Shown in pieces: positions 1,489 through 25,809 of a stretch of DNA of 64,000 nt. The stretch covers positions 620,001 through 684,000 of the forward strand of contig NZ_RKRG01000001.1 in assembly GCF_003814835.1 (NCBI RefSeq), in the 5' to 3' direction. How positions within the stretch are numbered: position 1 is the first letter of the stretch; each line of letters starts with the position of its first letter. This DNA is from Methanobrevibacter gottschalkii DSM 11977 (GTDB lineage Archaea > Methanobacteriota > Methanobacteria > Methanobacteriales > Methanobacteriaceae). The position numbers and the translations under genes were made by a program. Below the pieces are notes generated by a model. It had not been told where the DNA came from and did not search any database. It saw nothing but the letters and a program-made list of their open reading frames with translations.

Positions 1489-2636
1489 TGAGGTATATCA
1501 TGCCGATTTTATCATTTTCAAGTAATGATATTGATGTTATTACAGGTAAAAAAACCAGAACAATTCGTAAAGCATGGAAAACTCCACTTAAAGTTGGAGA
1601 TAGGCTTTATTGTTATTGGAATTTAGTATCAAAAGAAAAAATGAAGATTTTTGAAGCGTTTGTTACAAAGATTGAAGACATTTCTTTTGATGAACTTAAA
1701 GGTAATGATGAATTGGCTCGTCAAGAAGGATTTAAAGATTCAAAAGACATGCTGAAGGAATTTAAAAAGATGTATGGTGGAAGAATTGATCCTTCTGATA
1801 AATTCCAAATAATCTATTTTGAAAAAATTCATATTGATGATTGGAAAGGCGATAAAATTGATGAAAAAGCAATGATTTCTAAAAGAGCAGATATTCTATT
1901 TGATAGTGGTAAATTTGACAAATCCACCATGTGTTATGATGCTGCTTTAAAATTAGATCCTCATGATGTTTATTTATTGAATAAACAAGGAGATAACTTA
2001 TCAAGGTTAGGTAGATTTATGGATGCAATTGAGTGTTATGATAAAGCATTGATGATCGAGCCTGATAATGTATATATCTTAAATAATAAAGCTATTGCAC
2101 TTCTAAACTCTGGAAATATCAATGAAGCATTAAAAGTAAGTAATATTGCTTATAATTATCGTCCAAGTAGTCCGATAGTTCTTTATTGGAGAGGTTTTAT
2201 TTTAGAGATGCTTGGAAGATATGATAATGCTTTAAAAGTTTATGATAAACTTATAGTTATTGATGGGGATAATCCTGAGGTATGGAATTCCCGTGGGAAT
2301 TTATTAACTGATATGGGCATGCTGGAAGAAGCTATTGAATCATTTGATAAGGCAGTTGAAGTTTGTTTAGATGATTCTGAAATGGATGCTTCAGCTATTA
2401 ATAGGATGGGTAATGCTTATATTGATTTGGGAAAACTTGATGAGGCTTTGGATTGTTTTAATAAAGCTATTTCTTTAGAAAAAAATAACATTGATTTTTT
2501 ACTTAATAAAGGAGTGGTTTTAATGGAACTTGGAAAATTTAAAGAAGCAATTGATAGTTTCAATAAAGTATTACTTAGAAATCCTGATAATGAGGACGCA
2601 TTTTTCTTAAAAGAGGAATGTTTGGAGTATTTGTGA
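1488..2636 (+). CDS. ASCH domain plus TPR repeat protein
   Basis: This 382-residue protein joins two modules. Residues 1-115 look like an ASCH domain, a PUA-related RNA-binding fold, with KKTRTIRKAW and GDRLYCYWN near the N-terminus. Residues about 123-382 are tandem tetratricopeptide repeats with the usual A..C/S..KAL...P.N pattern. TPR arrays carry protein-protein contacts, so an RNA-linked scaffold is a fair inference, but no specific function is known to me. The start overlaps the upstream stop (TAATG); a second in-frame ATG lies 12 bases further in at 1500. Confidence 0.7.
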   Translation: MRYIMPILSFSSNDIDVITGKKTRTIRKAWKTPLKVGDRLYCYWNLVSKEKMKIFEAFVTKIEDISFDELKGNDELARQEGFKDSKDMLKEFKKMYGGRIDPSDKFQIIYFEKIHIDDWKGDKIDEKAMISKRADILFDSGKFDKSTMCYDAALKLDPHDVYLLNKQGDNLSRLGRFMDAIECYDKALMIEPDNVYILNNKAIALLNSGNINEALKVSNIAYNYRPSSPIVLYWRGFILEMLGRYDNALKVYDKLIVIDGDNPEVWNSRGNLLTDMGMLEEAIESFDKAVEVCLDDSEMDASAINRMGNAYIDLGKLDEALDCFNKAISLEKNNIDFLLNKGVVLMELGKFKEAIDSFNKVLLRNPDNEDAFFLKEECLEYL

Positions 2637-2709
2637 GTCCACTTTATTTTTTAAAATTTCGTTAACTAACAATCATTAATTTCACATTGTTCAGCTAATA
2701 CGTCTTACT

Positions 2710-3096
2710 ATGGGAGAAAAAACTACTAAGGAAAAAATTTTTGATGCATCATTGGATTTATTTTTACAAAAGGGATTTAATAATACTTCATTAAGGCAAA
2801 TAGCTCATGAAGTTGGAATTAAAAAGAATTCAATTTATAATCATTATTCCACAAAACAAGCTAATGGATGATTCTGGAAACATTTTCTGATTATTTCGAT
2901 AACACATCTGGTAGAAGATTCTAATATGCAATCATTGCCTGAATCTGATTCAGTATTCTTTTATCAAGCTGGTTCTGAAATATTTCGATATCAATTAAGA
3001 AATGAAAGAATAATGACAATTTTCAGATTCATATTTATTCAAATGTATCAAGATGAAAAGATAGCTAAATTTTTCTACAGCATAACTGAAATTTGA
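2710..3096 (+). pseudogene. Decayed TetR-family regulator
   Basis: From ATG 2710 the first 53 codons encode a clear TetR N-terminal helix-turn-helix (DLFLQKGFNNTSLRQIA, then VGIKKNSIYNHY). The frame closes at TGA 2869-2871. Continuation is readable in another frame (ILETFSDYFDN..), which stops after 15 or so codons, and again in that frame from about 2925 to TGA 3094-3096 (FRYQLRNERIMTIFRFIF..). At least one frameshift and an in-frame stop make this a dead gene. No intact target gene lies next to it. Confidence 0.75.
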
Positions 3097-3726
3097 ATAT
3101 GATACATCTGACTATAAGATGATAAAAACTAATTACACAGTTTATGACGCCATTTAAAAATTTTACAGTTGAAATCATTATGAAAATATTAAAAAGTATA
3201 TTTATTTTGAAGTTATCTAGTTTTTGTAAAATTCATCAAAATGCCTTGGCACATATACACTCAGATTTAAAGAATATTTTAAAAATAATCATTGTGTTCA
3301 TAAATTAAAATTAGATATGGTATTTTTGATATTTATGAATAAACTTATTATTTAAACATGCTTGAATCCAATATAATGAATGGAATAATATGAGCGGATT
3401 TTCAATTAGGATAAGCAGATTTCTACATTAATGTGCAATATCTTAAAACATTTTTAAAGCAGAAAATGCTGGTCTCGGATTGGTATGTAATAAAAATTGC
3501 AATATGTGTCTAATATCTAATGATTTTCCACTTTGATTATATTTAATGAATTGATTCTGATTTTTCAAGAATTTCAATAAAAAAATATTTAGAAGAAATT
3601 GGAATGTTATGTTGCTTGTGTTTCAAACAGTTTCAATCATGTTTTAAATAGAGTTGATTACTCTAAAAAATTGGATGGATGGAATACTCCATCAACAACT
3701 GGTGTTCAAGAACTAACAGAAAAAAT
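3097..3726 (+). other. Non-coding stretch with gene debris
   Basis: No intact gene is visible in these 630 bases. All frames are broken by many stops. The last stretch (about 3593-3730) is open for 46 codons and ends in a protein-like segment (VDYSKKLDGWNTPSTTG) with a stop that overlaps the end of glmM on the other strand. It is probably the 3' remnant of a gene that stood next to the TetR regulator. I do not recognise the family. Confidence 0.4.
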
Positions 3727-19000: not shown

Positions 19001-20564
19001 TTCTTATAGCTTGTCTGATTTAGAGATGTCATTTATTGATTATGCAAATGGAAATTTATTTGATACAATGAGTGTTTCATTAAAATATCCTGGAAATGAC
19101 AGATTATTTTTTGCATTTGAAGACACTATCAACAAAACTTTTGTGTGGAGAGGGGATTCTTCAGTTAGTTTGTATAATATTCATTATGTAAATGGAGGAT
19201 ATTTTGATTTGACTGCACCATTCCCTATTGGCGATAATGGTGATTTAATTTATGACAATGGAAATATTTACTCCATTAACTATAACTGTATTTATACATT
19301 TTTATCTTCAGATTATGATTGTTTAAAAACCTATACCTTTGCAAATAGCAAAATTAATAATAATGCTCTAAATTATTGGTTAAATCAGAAGAACCGTACT
19401 GATGTTAATGGGGAATTATATTATAATATAGGTTATATGAAAGCAGCTTATGGTAGTTTCCTTGAAGGTTTACTAGTAATTTATTGTAATGATGTTGTTG
19501 CTGACGTTAGTGCAGATAAGTTCAATGTATCCTGGACTCGTGTAAACCCTATGGTTATGAGTGTTTGTGATAGTTTGGAAGGTTATTATCTGACTGGAGA
19601 ATCTGATTTTAACTTTGGTCGTGAAGTAGTTGGTGATGTAAATAATATTAAATCATTTAATTTTGCTTGTTCAGCATCATTTTCTATTATTGAAAAGTAT
19701 GTTATTGATGCATTATTCCCTAATGAAGGAAATAAATCTTCAGCTATGTTTTCTTTGATTGATAGTTTATTTAATAATGGAACTTTAGAATTTATTGTTG
19801 AAGGAAATTATACTTTGATTCGTAGCTTAAATGTTAGTAATGTTGTTTTTGTTTACGATGAAACTACTGGAATTTTACGTGATTGTATTAATGGATGCTA
19901 TGGAGCATATTGTTATGCCAGCCAACAAACTGAATGGGGGCATAATTTTGGTGAAAATTCATTGAAATTAGAAGATTTAATTGTTGGTATTATAAATGGA
20001 ATTGATACCTCGTTGGACAATATGAATAATGATTGGTTAGGTTTTGCAGGATGTTTGGCAATTACTATTGGAACCGGATTGTTTTTAGTTTCTAATCCTG
20101 TTGGATGGAGTATTGCAATTGGAGCAGGTTTGTTAATTGGTTCCGGAATGTTGGCCACATATTACGCAGATGATTTAAATAAAGGTTGGAATTATAATAG
20201 GGGTGCACACTTCATATTTGATGTTGGTACTTCAATGATTCCCGCAGGTGCTCCATCATCTTTAATAAAATGGAATGTTGGCAGTTTAGGTAAAATTGTT
20301 TTAAGTGATGGTCATTTGGTTAGGCATGTTACTAAAAATTCCATTAATAAAGGTTTTGACAAATATTTAATGAATTTAGCTAAATCTCATGGAGGAACTA
20401 TTGATTACGGTTCTCATAAAATTATAAGATATGGAACTATAGAATCAATATCAAATACTATGTATGGTACAACAAAAAAAGATTTTATATACTATTCCAT
20501 TCAATATTATATTAACAAATATATTATTGGAGACATTGTAATTAATAAAATCTTTAGCAGGTAA
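16092..20564 (+). CDS. Adhesin-like protein, 5'-truncated, with hydrophobic C-terminal module
   Basis: About 1490 codons from TTG 16092. Residues 1-250 are Ig-like repeats (LKDKKRKVLVNKTVVFNFNG type), about 334-418 resemble a chitobiase C-terminal-like domain (YYTLDGSDPTVQ), about 420-700 form an Asn-rich right-handed beta-helix ending in NNWWGKN, then about 600 residues of an ALP-type ectodomain. Residues about 1315-1360 are two glycine-rich hydrophobic helices (CLAITIGTGLFL, WSIAIGAGLLIGSGML), followed by a 130-residue tail of no known family. There is no signal peptide: a plausible original start (GGAGTG, TTG 16058, MKNLNKFL-like) is out of frame, so the 5' end has been deleted. It may be a pseudogene. 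Confidence 0.7.
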   Translation: MKNSKGKVLTGKKITVNYSGKTYSRTTDSKGCVSWNVQKKPGTYSVKFTFKAKGYQTSSKTAKVTVKAMPTSLTVNNLAFTYGDGNNKLKATLKDKKRKVLVNKTVVFNFNGKNYNQKTNSKGVATLTIGAGPKKYTTTISFTNANYLKSKKTVTVTVNSIPTSLTVNDLTCNYDDSNAYLYATLKDTKNNKFLSGQTITFKINDKSKNVVSDSNGKAGIKIEEKSGTYNVDVSFAKSPYASISKKINLNVQGALTPEINMHNGFYNVSNLLVDFTGDNAEYIVYCSFDNGASWYKDNHSLSFNLTTCNWSIIYYSSFRGFNSTINHVNYVLDGDVPLVWASHGSGIYNTNFQVNLTSVDLFDEKPIIYYTLDGSDPTVQSTIYSEPINVVKNTNLRFFAMDTFNHRSEIISVYYFIGNCIANLNNGKTYNTIQNAINDDKTKKGDIIEVNKDIIIENVVINKNIYLISNNVIWQSNNKSPIIYMKNVNNTFIEGFTFKSDNGSGIELNNVSNCVIQNNNFYNKYGFSIHNENKDNDNLNNICIQGNNFYDNYYNYINFEVLENSKIINNNFESNKNVSAITILNSKSNILINNQFTNLNYGILINKSYDDVFFGNNFSINNIGLYLNCVDSKVISNTFINNHYGIYSINASNLRINFNRIVDNSKFGVYCKKGIVDANNNWWGKNYITNNALNSGDINNNENIGINCSAYLVLNVYETNYKIDNGIVYNVSYVANLRSNNYGEIFNQYFIPNCKIVYNMYCEYLYDNGVVYRGVNRIIDLMLSEGSSIKEYRLGFLNNLTVTLDHQNISFFRESSFNAYATIDIVSSAIFNGSNLDISVRVPLVDNVDWFSIVCRYVGNFKSELLLIYNGEVRNTIVIESSFYNEAKNVFSNNFWNALDTYHSCFSGYRNKQICAYAYLYLNDPSLNTIELLDNKLSKSNIQFKLQDVYNLLANNNITLNDILLNLIKNSYSLSDLEMSFIDYANGNLFDTMSVSLKYPGNDRLFFAFEDTINKTFVWRGDSSVSLYNIHYVNGGYFDLTAPFPIGDNGDLIYDNGNIYSINYNCIYTFLSSDYDCLKTYTFANSKINNNALNYWLNQKNRTDVNGELYYNIGYMKAAYGSFLEGLLVIYCNDVVADVSADKFNVSWTRVNPMVMSVCDSLEGYYLTGESDFNFGREVVGDVNNIKSFNFACSASFSIIEKYVIDALFPNEGNKSSAMFSLIDSLFNNGTLEFIVEGNYTLIRSLNVSNVVFVYDETTGILRDCINGCYGAYCYASQQTEWGHNFGENSLKLEDLIVGIINGIDTSLDNMNNDWLGFAGCLAITIGTGLFLVSNPVGWSIAIGAGLLIGSGMLATYYADDLNKGWNYNRGAHFIFDVGTSMIPAGAPSSLIKWNVGSLGKIVLSDGHLVRHVTKNSINKGFDKYLMNLAKSHGGTIDYGSHKIIRYGTIESISNTMYGTTKKDFIYYSIQYYINKYIIGDIVINKIFSR

Positions 20565-20902: not shown

Positions 20903-21235
20903 ATGTCATTTAATGAAGAAAGAGGCTGTTTAATGAAAATTACTATTTGTATATATTTGTTACTTTTAGTTATTTTTACTAGTTTATCCATATTATTTAG
21001 TAATAAAATTTTTTTAGAATTGTTACCCATAATTATTCTGGTCATAAGTATTGAACATGTTAGAGATTATGCATGCATCTATGAAAAATATTTTAAACAG
21101 AATTATTCCTTGTTTAAACTATATTTAAATGTCTCTACTATTCCCACTATTTTATTTGCAATATGTTGTGAAGCGTTATTGAGAGTTTATTTCAATTCAA
21201 GTATAATCTTAAAATATCTAAAGATATTAACATGA
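20903..21235 (+). CDS. Small membrane protein, putative immunity protein 2
   Basis: A 110-residue paralogue of the preceding gene, 10 bases downstream with its own GGAG ribosome site ahead of ATG 20903. Hydrophobic segments lie at about residues 13-29, 36-48 and 76-91. The shared C-terminal block reads ICCEALLRVYFNSSI here and ICCEVILRLYFGSSI in the neighbour, while other parts have diverged, so this is an old tandem duplication rather than a recent copy. Function unknown; see the preceding gene. Confidence 0.6.
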   Translation: MSFNEERGCLMKITICIYLLLLVIFTSLSILFSNKIFLELLPIIILVISIEHVRDYACIYEKYFKQNYSLFKLYLNVSTIPTILFAICCEALLRVYFNSSIILKYLKILT

Positions 21236-21299: not shown

Positions 21300-22679
21300 T
21301 TATAGTTAATTACCAAACTTTTGGTATAAATGTTTCAAACCATTTGTCATAAACTTTTGTTCCTAAAATTGATTTATTGTAGGTTTTTATTGTTAATTCT
21401 TTTAGAAATTCTTTTGATTCTAGATAATAACGTTTTATTTCTCTTTTCATTTGTCTCCATATTTGTTCTATTGGATTTAAGTGAGGAGAGTAGGGAAGAA
21501 TGTATATTAATGTAATATTGAGGTATAATGCTATTTCTTTGATGAATGCAGATTTATGGACGCTATAATTATCTAATATTAAACATATTCTTTGTTCATT
21601 TTTTTGTTTTTGATAATATGTTTTCTTTTTTTAAGAGATTTAATGTTATTTTTCTTCTTATTTCTCTTCTTTTTTTCACATTTTGGATTGATTCACGATT
21701 ACAGTGTTTTCCTATTATTCTGGCGATTGTTGAGGTTGTATCGTCTTTATATTTTTCTATTATTTTTAGAATTTTTTCTGTGAAAACTTTATTATTTTCG
21801 TTGTTTTCGATTAAAATTTCGTCTATTTCTTTATCAGTTAAATTTACTTCATTTATGATTTTATTTAATATTTTTACAGTATTTTTGTTCTTTGTATTTG
21901 CGTATCTTATTTCTAAAAGTGCTATTGCAATTTCAGGTGCTGTTGAGGAGTTTGTAAATTGTGAGGGTTGAATTTCCATTTATTGCTAATGATTCTGTGG
22001 CATTTATTTTGAATTTATAGGGATTTACAGTTTGTGTATGTTTTGTTCCTCTTTTTATAGAGTGATTTTTGTGTATATGGTTCATTTTGGAAAGAATCTT
22101 CATCAAATAAGGCTATAATATCGTTTGAATTTACATTATGTTCTTTTAAGTTTTTTTTAACTGTTTTTCAGCATCTTTTGGAGATTTTGAAGATTTTGGA
22201 TATGCTTTACTGTAATTGTATCCTAATTTTTTCATAATTTTGCCTATTTGCTTTAAACTATAATTTACATTGAATTTTTCATTAACAAGAATATGTACGT
22301 CTTTCATTGAGATATTAGGTGTTTTTTCAATGATTTTGTCCAGTTCAATTAGTTGATCATAAGTTAATTTTGAAGGTCTTCCACCACCAAATGACGGTTT
22401 TAAACCTTCCAGTCCTTCACTTTCGCATGTTTTAGCCCATCGATGAACTGTTTGATATGATTTTCTAATTATTCTTGCAGCTTCCGCAATGCTATGACCT
22501 TCACTGATAATTCTAATTGCAATTAGTCTTTGATAATACCTATGGTAAGCAACATATTTTGCAATTTCTTCATCCAGAGCTGTTTTTTTCACATTTTTTA
22601 AAACATTAATATTGGATTTACCTGACATAATTTATTATTTGTCAATTATCTATAATAAAAGTTTGGTAATTAACTATAA
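21300..22679 (-). mobile_element. IS630-like insertion sequence
   Basis: A 1.38-kb element bounded by perfect 23-bp inverted repeats (21300-21322 and 22657-22679; AGTTAATTACCAAACTTTT at the left). Both ends carry TA, the usual IS630/Tc1 target. The transposase runs on the minus strand and is frameshifted. It inserted about 65 bases after the second immunity-like gene. Confidence 0.85.
21310..22628 (-). pseudogene. Frameshifted IS630-family transposase
   Basis: The first 160 codons (22628 down to 22146) are intact and encode the helix-turn-helix and winged region (GHSIAEAARIIRKSYQTVHRW, then GRPSKLTYDQLIELD). The DDE part continues in other frames: ALFDEDSFQNEPYTQ near 22110, NPYKFKINATESLAINGNS after a shift near 22040, then a long open part (21979-21596) and finally CLILDNYSVHKS and LPYSPHLNPIEQIWR, ending at 21310. 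The D, D and E blocks are all present, but at least three frameshifts break them, so it is probably inactive. Confidence 0.8.
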
Positions 22680-22979: not shown

Positions 22980-24250
22980 TTATTTGGTGCTTTCGTATAG
23001 TCGGATTATTTTTATTGTGTATTTTCTTATAATCTTCGTGGAAGGGTTTAAAATCATTTTTGGCAGGTATTTCTTTAATTTTCTGATTAAATTTGCTTGA
23101 TCTACTTGGTATTCGTCTTTGATTCCTTTTTTTCTTTTTCTTTTATTTATTATGAAGTTTAAATAAGATTTGTAATGGCAAAATATGTTGTATCTTAAGA
23201 ATTTGGAGTAAATGTCTTGTTCGATGGTTATGCGTCTTTTTCCAGTGTAGTTCTCGATGTAGTATCTGTTTTTTTTAGTGTGTTGTAGTTGGTTTCGATT
23301 CCCCATCTTTGGTGGTAAATTTCACAAATATCTTCTGTTGTCATGATATTTTCAGGTAAATTTGTTAATAAAAGTTTCGATTTCAATTTCAATTTCTCCT
23401 GTCTTTTCATTTTCTTTTTCTATTTCAATGGTGACTATTCTTAATTTTAGATATAATTCTTTGGAATATTTTTTCTTTAAGAATTGGATCTTTGAATCTT
23501 TTGAGTCTTTCGCCAGTTAAATACAATTTTATTTCTTCATCATTGGATTGAACTTGTTTTCTTTCTTTTTTTATAGAAATCATCCTGCAATCGTACTACA
23601 AAATAACTATTCATCTCAATTATATGTGCAAATAGTTCCATTGCTGCATATCCTCTATCAAATATTAAAATTGAAGATGTAGGATTGATTATTTTGGTGG
23701 AATTCTTTAGATTTTGATGCATTAGTTGTAATTCGCCTTGTTTGTGGTTTCCTATTATGCCGGCAATGATAAAACCATTTAAAACATCCATTAAACCTGA
23801 AAATTTAGCATTTGAAGGCTCTCTTTTAATTAAACTATTGTTTTTAATCCCAAATTCATTACGAACTTCATCAAAATCAGGAATTTCAAAATCGGACCCA
23901 TCACCAGCAATTAAGAAAAATCCTTTAAATTTTTTAAATAAGGGATTATTAGTATTATAATTTATATTTTTTAAATATTTATTGCTTATTTGTTTAAAAA
24001 CTAATGGATCAATGAATATTCTTTGTTTTGAAAGATTTTGTCTTGTTAAACAGATATCCAAGTCATCAAATTTATCTTCCAAATAGTCATCTAAATCATT
24101 TTGATTTGAAGATCCTTTATTAAACAAAAAGAATGATACAATGTCCTTAAAATTAAATTTACGTTCTCTGGAAAATTTATTTTCAGTATTAACAAATTTT
24201 TGATAATTGGTTAATACTGTATCGATGGCAGACTCATAATAATAAAACAT
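22980..24250 (-). pseudogene. Frameshifted IS4-family transposase
   Basis: ATG 24250 (ribosome site GGTGAT just upstream) opens about 235 codons with IAGDGSDFEIPD and ILIFDRGYAAMELF, the two aspartate blocks of IS4-type DDE enzymes. The frame breaks near 23540. Further pieces are readable: ICEIYHQRWGIETNYNTLKK near 23305 is the Y-R-E signature with the catalytic glutamate, and YTGKRRITIEQDIYSKFL follows after another frameshift. All catalytic blocks are present, but the gene is broken at two or more places. Confidence 0.8.
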
Positions 24251-24880
24251 AAATATCACCATCGATTTATTTGCCTAAAACAAATAAATTTAATTTATTT
24301 ATTTGAATTTTTAACAGTTTTACTTCAGATTTCACATTTTCCATTTTTTCACAAAAAATAGAAAATTTAATTAATGATTTGCCCCAAAGTATTATTGAGG
24401 ACTTTTGTTTTTGTTTCATATTTATACATTTGTCCTCACTATTTATATAATATTTTCTAATGACTCTATTTCTTCTATAAAAACTAAATTAATATAAGTA
24501 ATTTATATATAGACCATACATATCAGATTATTTAAAAATACTTAATTTAAATTTTGCTTTAATTAAAATAATGAATTCAACGCATTAAATTTATATTGTA
24601 GCAAATAAGTTTAAATATAATAAAAGCTAAATATTAATTTAATCAAATAATAACAAACTGTAATAAACTGTTTTTTTAAAAAACAAAATATAAACATATA
24701 TTAAACATAATAAAGACATAACGTATTAATAATAAAAAAATAAAGCAAAAAAATCAATTTCTTAAGTTGACGGCATTGTTAATTGAACACATAATGAATA
24801 GTATTAATGCACAATATAAATAACTATGAAAATGATTTGTTAATCTGATGAATCAATGAATGAAATGGATTGGAATAGAC

Positions 24881-24890
24881 ATATATAAAT
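24881..24890 (+). promoter_or_regulatory. TATA box ahead of RNA candidate
   Basis: ATATATAAAT is a canonical archaeal TATA element. It would start transcription near 24905-24912, directly ahead of a 180-base stretch with several base-paired stems and no open reading frame. Confidence 0.4.
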
Positions 24891-24904
24891 AATTAGGTTG
24901 TCAA

Positions 24905-25090
24905 ATAAGAACTGGCTGTTTATAAGTCGATTTGAGGGTTAAGTAATGAAAACCTTATTTTCTTGCATTGGTACTATTGGGTAAATGAAAAGGAGCTTGT
25001 TCCCTCCCCTTAATTAGGCATTAAGGGTTTCAATGCACGATTTGCCTCATAGATGAAATATGAATATTAATGAGGGGTGAAACACATCAT
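24905..25090 (+). ncRNA. Candidate structured non-coding RNA
   Basis: An intergenic stretch of markedly higher GC than its flanks with ordered stems: AGGGTT (24935-24940) with AACCTT (24951-24956); GCATTG (24965-24970) with CAATGC (25031-25036), enclosing a perfect hairpin CCCTTAAT/ATTAAGGG (25007-25014, 25020-25027, loop TAGGC); then CCTCAT (25045-25050) with ATGAGG (25070-25075). A further pair TCAAAT/ATTTGA (24901-24906, 24930-24935) starts at the predicted transcript end. It does not show the conserved cores of RNase P RNA, SRP RNA or a box C/D RNA that I know. Strand is chosen from the TATA box. Confidence 0.45.
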
Positions 25091-25757
25091 AATAAGTCTT
25101 CACAACTAAACAACGAGCAATTCAATGAATTAATGTTATATTCTTCACGAGTAGTAAAAGAATGAGCATCCTCATTTCCAGTGCTGTCTGTTTCGCCAAT
25201 TTCATCTGCATCACCAGAGGTTGATGGATTTCTTCTTTCAGGAGTGGAACCGTCTTTACTAGTTTCAATTTTAATTTTTCTTTAAGTCAGTTTCTCCATC
25301 AGTTCCATATCAACATCACCTGACAATAGCTTATCAATAATTTATTTATACTGTGTATTTTCATTATAGTTAAAGTTGTATTTAGCTATGTACTCTTTTA
25401 TTTTCCTTTTATTTTCAGCTTTTTTAAGTTCAGATAATTCTTTTAATATTTCGTATTTAGAATCAATGAATTCTTTATTTTCTCCAATAGCTTTTTTAAT
25501 CTCTTCATATTTTTCAAATTATTTTTTAAGAGTGTTAATCTCTTCCTGAAGCTTTCCAATCTCAGTGTATTTACCTTGCAATTTTTTCAATAGCAAAATA
25601 GTGGCTACATTAGTTTCTTTATTCTGTGGGTGAGGTTGTGGCTGTGGAGCAGGTGCAGATTCAGGGTTCTCAGCAACACTAGTGTCTCTGGTTATATCTG
25701 ATTCAACAATGTAATCTTTCTAGGGTTTTTAGTTACTCCAAAATCTATTAAACTCAT
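25087..25757 (-). pseudogene. Decayed coiled-coil protein gene
   Basis: From ATG 25757 (MSLIDFGVTKNP) a shift leads into a long frame with several in-frame stops: a Pro/Gln-rich linker (APAPQPQPHPQ), then a charged coiled coil (LQGKYTEIGKLQEEINTLKK, stop, FEKYEEIKKAIGENKEF..LKELSELKKAENKRKIKEY), and an acidic, Ser/Thr-rich end (STSGDADEIGETDSTGNED). The plan resembles a phage scaffolding or structural protein, but that is only a guess. At least three stops or shifts make it non-functional. Confidence 0.5.
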
Positions 25758-25809
25758 AGTATCAATTTTAAATGAATCTTTAATTAATTATATTATTTAT
25801 TATTTTTTT

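Follow-up and report, generated by a model that had tools for sequence, protein, structure and literature searches.

A decayed hairpin array beside a viral gene relic

Positions 24881-25090 of the window (the whole stretch of 64,000 nt of the Methanobrevibacter gottschalkii DSM 11977 genome analysed here) contain no reading frame, as the initial annotation had stated and as was borne out on re-reading the sequence. On its right, this region reaches a decayed gene on the minus strand (25135-25778), previously described as a coiled-coil gene. By tblastn, the gene is the relic of a viral prohead protease/scaffold gene (residues 97-122 and 115-308, 69-85% identity), with positions 25135-25725 matching protease residues 115-308 at 69% identity. 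Because of this identity of the coiled-coil gene, we consider the window to contain a provirus remnant. The left boundary of the relic is formed by an IS remnant with a DDE transposase (22980-24262, minus strand; DDE_Tnp_1, E 1.1e-5, in the ORF 23540-24262). A further mobile element, an IS630-type transposase fragment with helix-turn-helix domains, was noted to the left of the relic at 22146-22628.

A BLAST alignment with a homologue in another genome (G054:C36) extended across positions 12-209 of the query, with 78% identity and an E value of 8e-38. Judged from such alignments, 24881-25090 represents the decayed 3' part of a larger modular hairpin array carried by head-tail viruses of Methanobrevibacter. 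BLAST and alignment placed this remnant, which corresponds to the G-D-E-F part of the array, at 24831-25104 on the plus strand, the reading strand of modules A-E. The coordinates first proposed were thus too short: similarity extends leftward to 24858 with an E value of 1.7e-4, and to 24831 by alignment only. The copy thus reaches left to ~24858 and probably as far as 24831.

The linker between modules G and D (24858-24900, plus strand), which aligned with ATATGAAGGAATAATTAATTTTGTC of the homologous loci L051, L053 and L058, holds the TATA-like sequence that had been interpreted as the element's own TATA box, with a start near 24905-24912. Since the further modules of these relatives sit upstream of the aligned linker, the TATA sequence is internal to the array and does not mark a start. 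Alignment further identified a decayed hairpin D (GAACTGGCT..AGTCGATTT; 24909-24933, plus strand), the intact form of which in relatives is GAACCGACC-XUUUAX'C-GGTCGGTTC, and domain E (24965-25037, plus strand), composed of the outer stem GCATTG/CAATGC and a decayed inner helix. This inner helix, E2 (24982-25016, plus strand), was recognized by double changes in relatives, where its intact form is AATTAAAGGGGGG-CTTGT-CCCCCCTTAATT. A remnant of hairpin F (25072-25102), assigned to the minus strand by the G.U pattern of relatives, is located at the 3' end of the protease gene.

The stem GCATTG/CAATGC and the 8-bp hairpin CCCTTAAT/ATTAAGGG (25007-25027, plus strand) of the initial annotation are present in the sequence as described. 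The former is almost invariant in relatives and therefore says little. The latter can form in most relatives, but displayed no compensatory change (0 double changes) and was broken at one pair in 8 of 22. Its 5' arm covaries with an upstream arm, AATTAAAGGGG, resulting in 8 double-change cells compared to 2.4 ± 1.1 in shuffles. The 8-bp hairpin and E2 are mutually exclusive, with E2 being the better supported of the two; a switch between them is possible but unsupported. The proposed stem CCTCAT/ATGAGG is without counterpart, the relatives having CCCCAC/ATGGAG.

The window copy shares with its family the homology to modules D and E and the location on the opposite strand, directly downstream of the protease relic. 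Whereas intact modules fold better than shuffles, the window copy alone did not fold better than its dinucleotide shuffles (z +0.53 on the plus and -0.82 on the minus strand). With its D and E stems broken and modules A-C missing, it is a relic of the hairpin-array family and a non-working member.

Homologues in viruses and proviruses

The nucleotide search of the genus proposed in the initial annotation recovered multi-copy homologues, with matches to the window query in 27 of 67 genomes. When an intact 500-bp copy was used as the query, matches, including a few short and weak ones, were obtained in 38 of the 139 family genomes. Many genomes contain at least two array copies. A second copy in the M. 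gottschalkii genome itself, on contig C2 (78% identity, E 3e-25), is better preserved than the window copy. A 21-bp match at C1:182208, located in unrelated sequence, was taken as chance.

Intact arrays were found in two virus genomes (BK063679 'vir323' and one contig from IMG/VR) as well as in proviruses throughout the Methanobacteriaceae. The IMG/VR contig was obtained by protein search; an exact DNA pattern search of IMG/VR returned nothing. The earlier suggestion that the stretch may have come with a mobile element was essentially right for the family, the carrier being a virus. A covariance model of module A matched 28 genomes among 151 of the order, of which 26 belong to the genus of the window and one each to two further genera of the Methanobacteriaceae, with no match in other families.

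Three relic arrays without protease, L164 (in genome G085), L065 and L066, were all observed next to the same neighbouring gene (MNYVEEAVQLFEDGY...). G085 belongs to another genus, and the common neighbour looks like the mark of an ancient insertion that the loci share or of a target used repeatedly. On contig G021:C19, two weak module-A matches (20264-20344 and 21135-21216) lie on one strand 0.9 kb apart, which may reflect divergence or duplication of the element.

Gene order around the array

Where the flanks were long enough, most copies lie ~60-100 nt beyond the 3' end of a conserved ORF of ~325 amino acids (aa), on the other strand; this ORF is preceded by one of ~435 aa. In BK063679.1 (Caudoviricetes sp. 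vir323; circular, 34 kb, host Methanobacteriales, goat source), the annotation names these ORFs prohead protease and portal protein, respectively. The names used here are taken from this GenBank record; comparison of both proteins with Pfam and PHROGs gave weak hints only (portal E 0.05). In vir323 the array, at 2600-3105 of BK063679.1 on the minus strand, occupies much of an unannotated gap from 2476 to 3617, and the gene order of the IMG/VR virus contig is as in vir323. Mapping of the vir323 proteins on all loci revealed one order in viruses and proviruses: TerL - gp44 - portal - protease - array - variable cargo - gp5 - gp6 onward. The GC content of intact arrays is 52-66%, compared to about 30% in the surrounding virus genome.

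The cargo between array and gp5 (L034-L061 and others) is variable, ranging from 0.2 to over 6 kb. By eye, it includes an 862-aa DUF262-type-like protein, HEAT/TPR-like proteins, a radical-SAM-like gene and others, and the region seems to be a hot spot at which these viruses carry accessory or defence genes. Contig C2 of the M. gottschalkii genome carries a near-complete vir323-type provirus at about 31.9-53.7 kb (L075, L076), containing portal, protease, hairpin array, gp5-gp11 and major head proteins. The protease of this provirus is apparently split by an in-frame stop, and about 4 kb of other genes lie between portal and protease.

Modules, folding and covariation of intact arrays

The arrays are modular and about 170-700 nt long. 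Read antisense to the protease, the modules follow in the order A, B, C, (G in some copies), D, E, F. Module A, mostly 82-107 nt in length, is a nested stem that contains tandem G.A pairs and loops of the GNRA type; because its length differs between copies (82, 83, 85, 86, 90 and 105-107 nt), it has no shared reading frame. Module B is the GGAACCGACC hairpin. Module C, which is repeatable, consists of two short tandem-G.A hairpins and then a GGAAnnGGGG-CTTG hairpin. The optional module G comprises the CTGTCCATC and TTGCGAC hairpins, D is the GAACCGACC hairpin and E the nested GCATTG domain. Hairpin F is the last element, close to the protease stop codon. B-C is partly doubled in L035, L037, L055, L059 and L060, and short arrays consisting of G-D-F only occur in L067, L150 and L161. 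Of 48 distinct regions downstream of the protease, counting that of the window, 46 keep D or E.

Folding of the vir323 array (L148) gave z values of -10.8 and -9.3 on the two strands, and folding of L041 gave -9.3 and -11.0; in both cases no shuffle was as good. As MAFFT combined with RNAalifold misaligned the repeated hairpins and under-called module A, we used a covariance model for alignment. In this module A alignment, which leans towards the model structure, 94.8% of cells were paired and 12 of 28 pairs had changes on both sides, with 55 double-change cells compared to 13.7 ± 2.9 in shuffles (0/500). Pairing fell to 28-44% in slid-partner controls. Because of the leaning towards the model, the hairpin arms were also listed directly from the sequences, independent of the covariance-model alignment (counts are copies, not independent events). 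The UUUA loop of B/D was closed by C-G in 17 copies, A-T in 10 and G-C in 7, the variable pairs of C3 were C-G 18/T-A 12 and A-T 21/G-C 9, and that of E2 was G-C in 13, T-A in 9 and A-T in 3, all without exception. Compensatory changes in relatives, named beforehand as a supporting result, are thus present in the family, in module A as well as in E2.

Strand and nature of the element

Among the distinct arm pairs of hairpin F in relatives, we counted 22 A.C and 0 G.U on the plus strand, which equals G.U on the minus strand. Because the G.U pattern falls on the minus strand, F would belong to the protease mRNA and mark its 3' end. Modules A-E showed no preference for G.U over A.C (23 versus 15 cells, 9 versus 8 column events), so that their assignment to the plus strand and to RNA rests on the type of motif. 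Tandem G.A was present in 30/30 C2 hairpins. In C1 hairpins, a Watson-Crick GA/TC step with a UUUA loop was swapped for GA/GA with a mostly GNRA-type loop. The one-sided motifs (tandem G.A, GNRA and CUUG) were always on the same strand. No conserved promoter was detected ahead of module A, and beyond about 20 nt upstream the copies are unrelated. As tandem G.A pairs may be stable in DNA as well, no promoter is conserved and G.U is rare, a role of the array as DNA is conceivable.

We interpret the stretch at 24881-25090 as a dead provirus remnant and the intact array as most likely a virus-encoded structured non-coding RNA, a reading that we hold with somewhat better than even confidence. Fixed gene order, covariation, exception-free arm tables, extreme z values, tandem G.A and high GC make this the most likely interpretation; the lack of a conserved promoter, the lack of a G.U preference in A-E and the extreme z on both strands speak against it. 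The array would be a stand-alone RNA acting from the plus strand and made during infection. Modules A, B, C, G, D and E would fold on the strand that does not carry the head and tail genes, with F in the protease mRNA. The many hairpins, presenting constant loops (UUUA, CUUG, GNRA) on top of freely changing stems, may form a scaffold or offer a platform to which an RNA-binding protein of the virus or its host attaches. More tentatively, and in our view doubtfully, the array might constitute a new class of large modular RNA of archaeal head-tail viruses, placed beside portal and protease for head assembly or packaging, or a self-assembling RNA scaffold.

Alternatively, the array may act as DNA, forming single-stranded or cruciform hairpins for packaging, replication or the exchange of accessory genes. 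The stems are palindromes made almost exclusively of Watson-Crick pairs, G.U being scarce, both strands fold well with the DNA fold also being extreme (z -8.6), and the array adjoins variable cargo and is without conserved promoter, all consistent with such a role. However, tandem G.A, GNRA and CUUG are one-sided, and an origin of replication at the array, sought by GC skew, left no sign in vir323, where an origin-type skew switch is absent. Moreover, module A occurs without cargo (L037, L115) and cargo without module A (L163), arguing against a simple cargo site; module A as a cargo attachment site was rejected for want of a strict link between the two. Overall, we consider a DNA element unlikely.

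That the array is, on the minus strand, an extended 3' untranslated region of the portal-protease mRNA with a role in stability or termination appears quite improbable. Hairpin F, with its G.U on the minus strand, fits this explanation, as does the invariable location of the array after the protease gene, but on the minus strand the tandem G.A pairs would turn into U.C mismatches and the GNRA loops into UUAC, and A-E are without the A.C excess seen in F. Chance stems in decayed sequence, as the poor folding of the window copy alone might suggest, are most improbable given covarying homologues with z values of -9 to -11, and are refuted for the family by the covariation of module A.

Relation to known RNAs and significance

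The description of the region as an unassigned multi-stem RNA candidate holds for the family, with its relatives, covariation and absence from Rfam, but not for the window copy, which is dead. The proposed Rfam search, performed with cmscan on the window, four intact loci and vir323 at gathering and permissive E values, gave no match, including to ROOL, GOLLD and the phi29 packaging RNA, placing the family outside Rfam.

ROOL and GOLLD, which occur in phages and prophages of bacteria, are ornate large RNAs with no reading frame and of unknown function (PMC12286853). The array resembles them in being large, elaborate, frameless and encoded by tailed viruses or proviruses, within a similar length range. 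In contrast, it is unrelated in sequence, has an archaeal host, is built from repeatable hairpin modules and lies beside portal and protease instead of near tRNA islands. A further criterion for ROOL and GOLLD is assembly into a homo-oligomeric RNA cage.

Phage phi29, a DNA virus, encodes its structured packaging RNA close to head functions; this RNA binds the portal and the packaging ATPase. A putative packaging RNA in Acidianus bottle-shaped virus indicates that archaeal viruses can carry one (PMC5882107). The array, likewise a structured element of a DNA virus near head genes, adjoins portal and protease, a likeness that is suggestive only. It is several times longer than the phi29 RNA, and vir323 has an annotated terminase large subunit.

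In sponge RNAs of the CsrB/CsrC type, a hairpin is repeated in a string, with the loops constant and the stems free to vary. The analogy with the array is one of mechanism only, the loop motifs being different and the sequences unrelated, and no CsrA partner is known in these archaea. REP/BIME elements are dispersed GC-rich palindromes. Similar to these, the palindromes of the array are GC-rich and kept perfect by paired changes. In contrast to REP/BIME, however, the hairpin units are confined to the array and were never found dispersed outside it in the 68 genomes searched.

Our literature search found no description of the array family, which thus appears to be undescribed; large structured RNAs of tailed viruses as such are already known from bacteria. 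Few non-coding RNAs of archaeal viruses have been described so far. The array is strongly structured, falls outside Rfam and occurs in viruses whose hosts are methanogens common in rumen and gut, and the published genomes of vir323-type viruses hold it as an unannotated structured element. Its fixed site in the head-gene cluster makes the role of the array directly testable.
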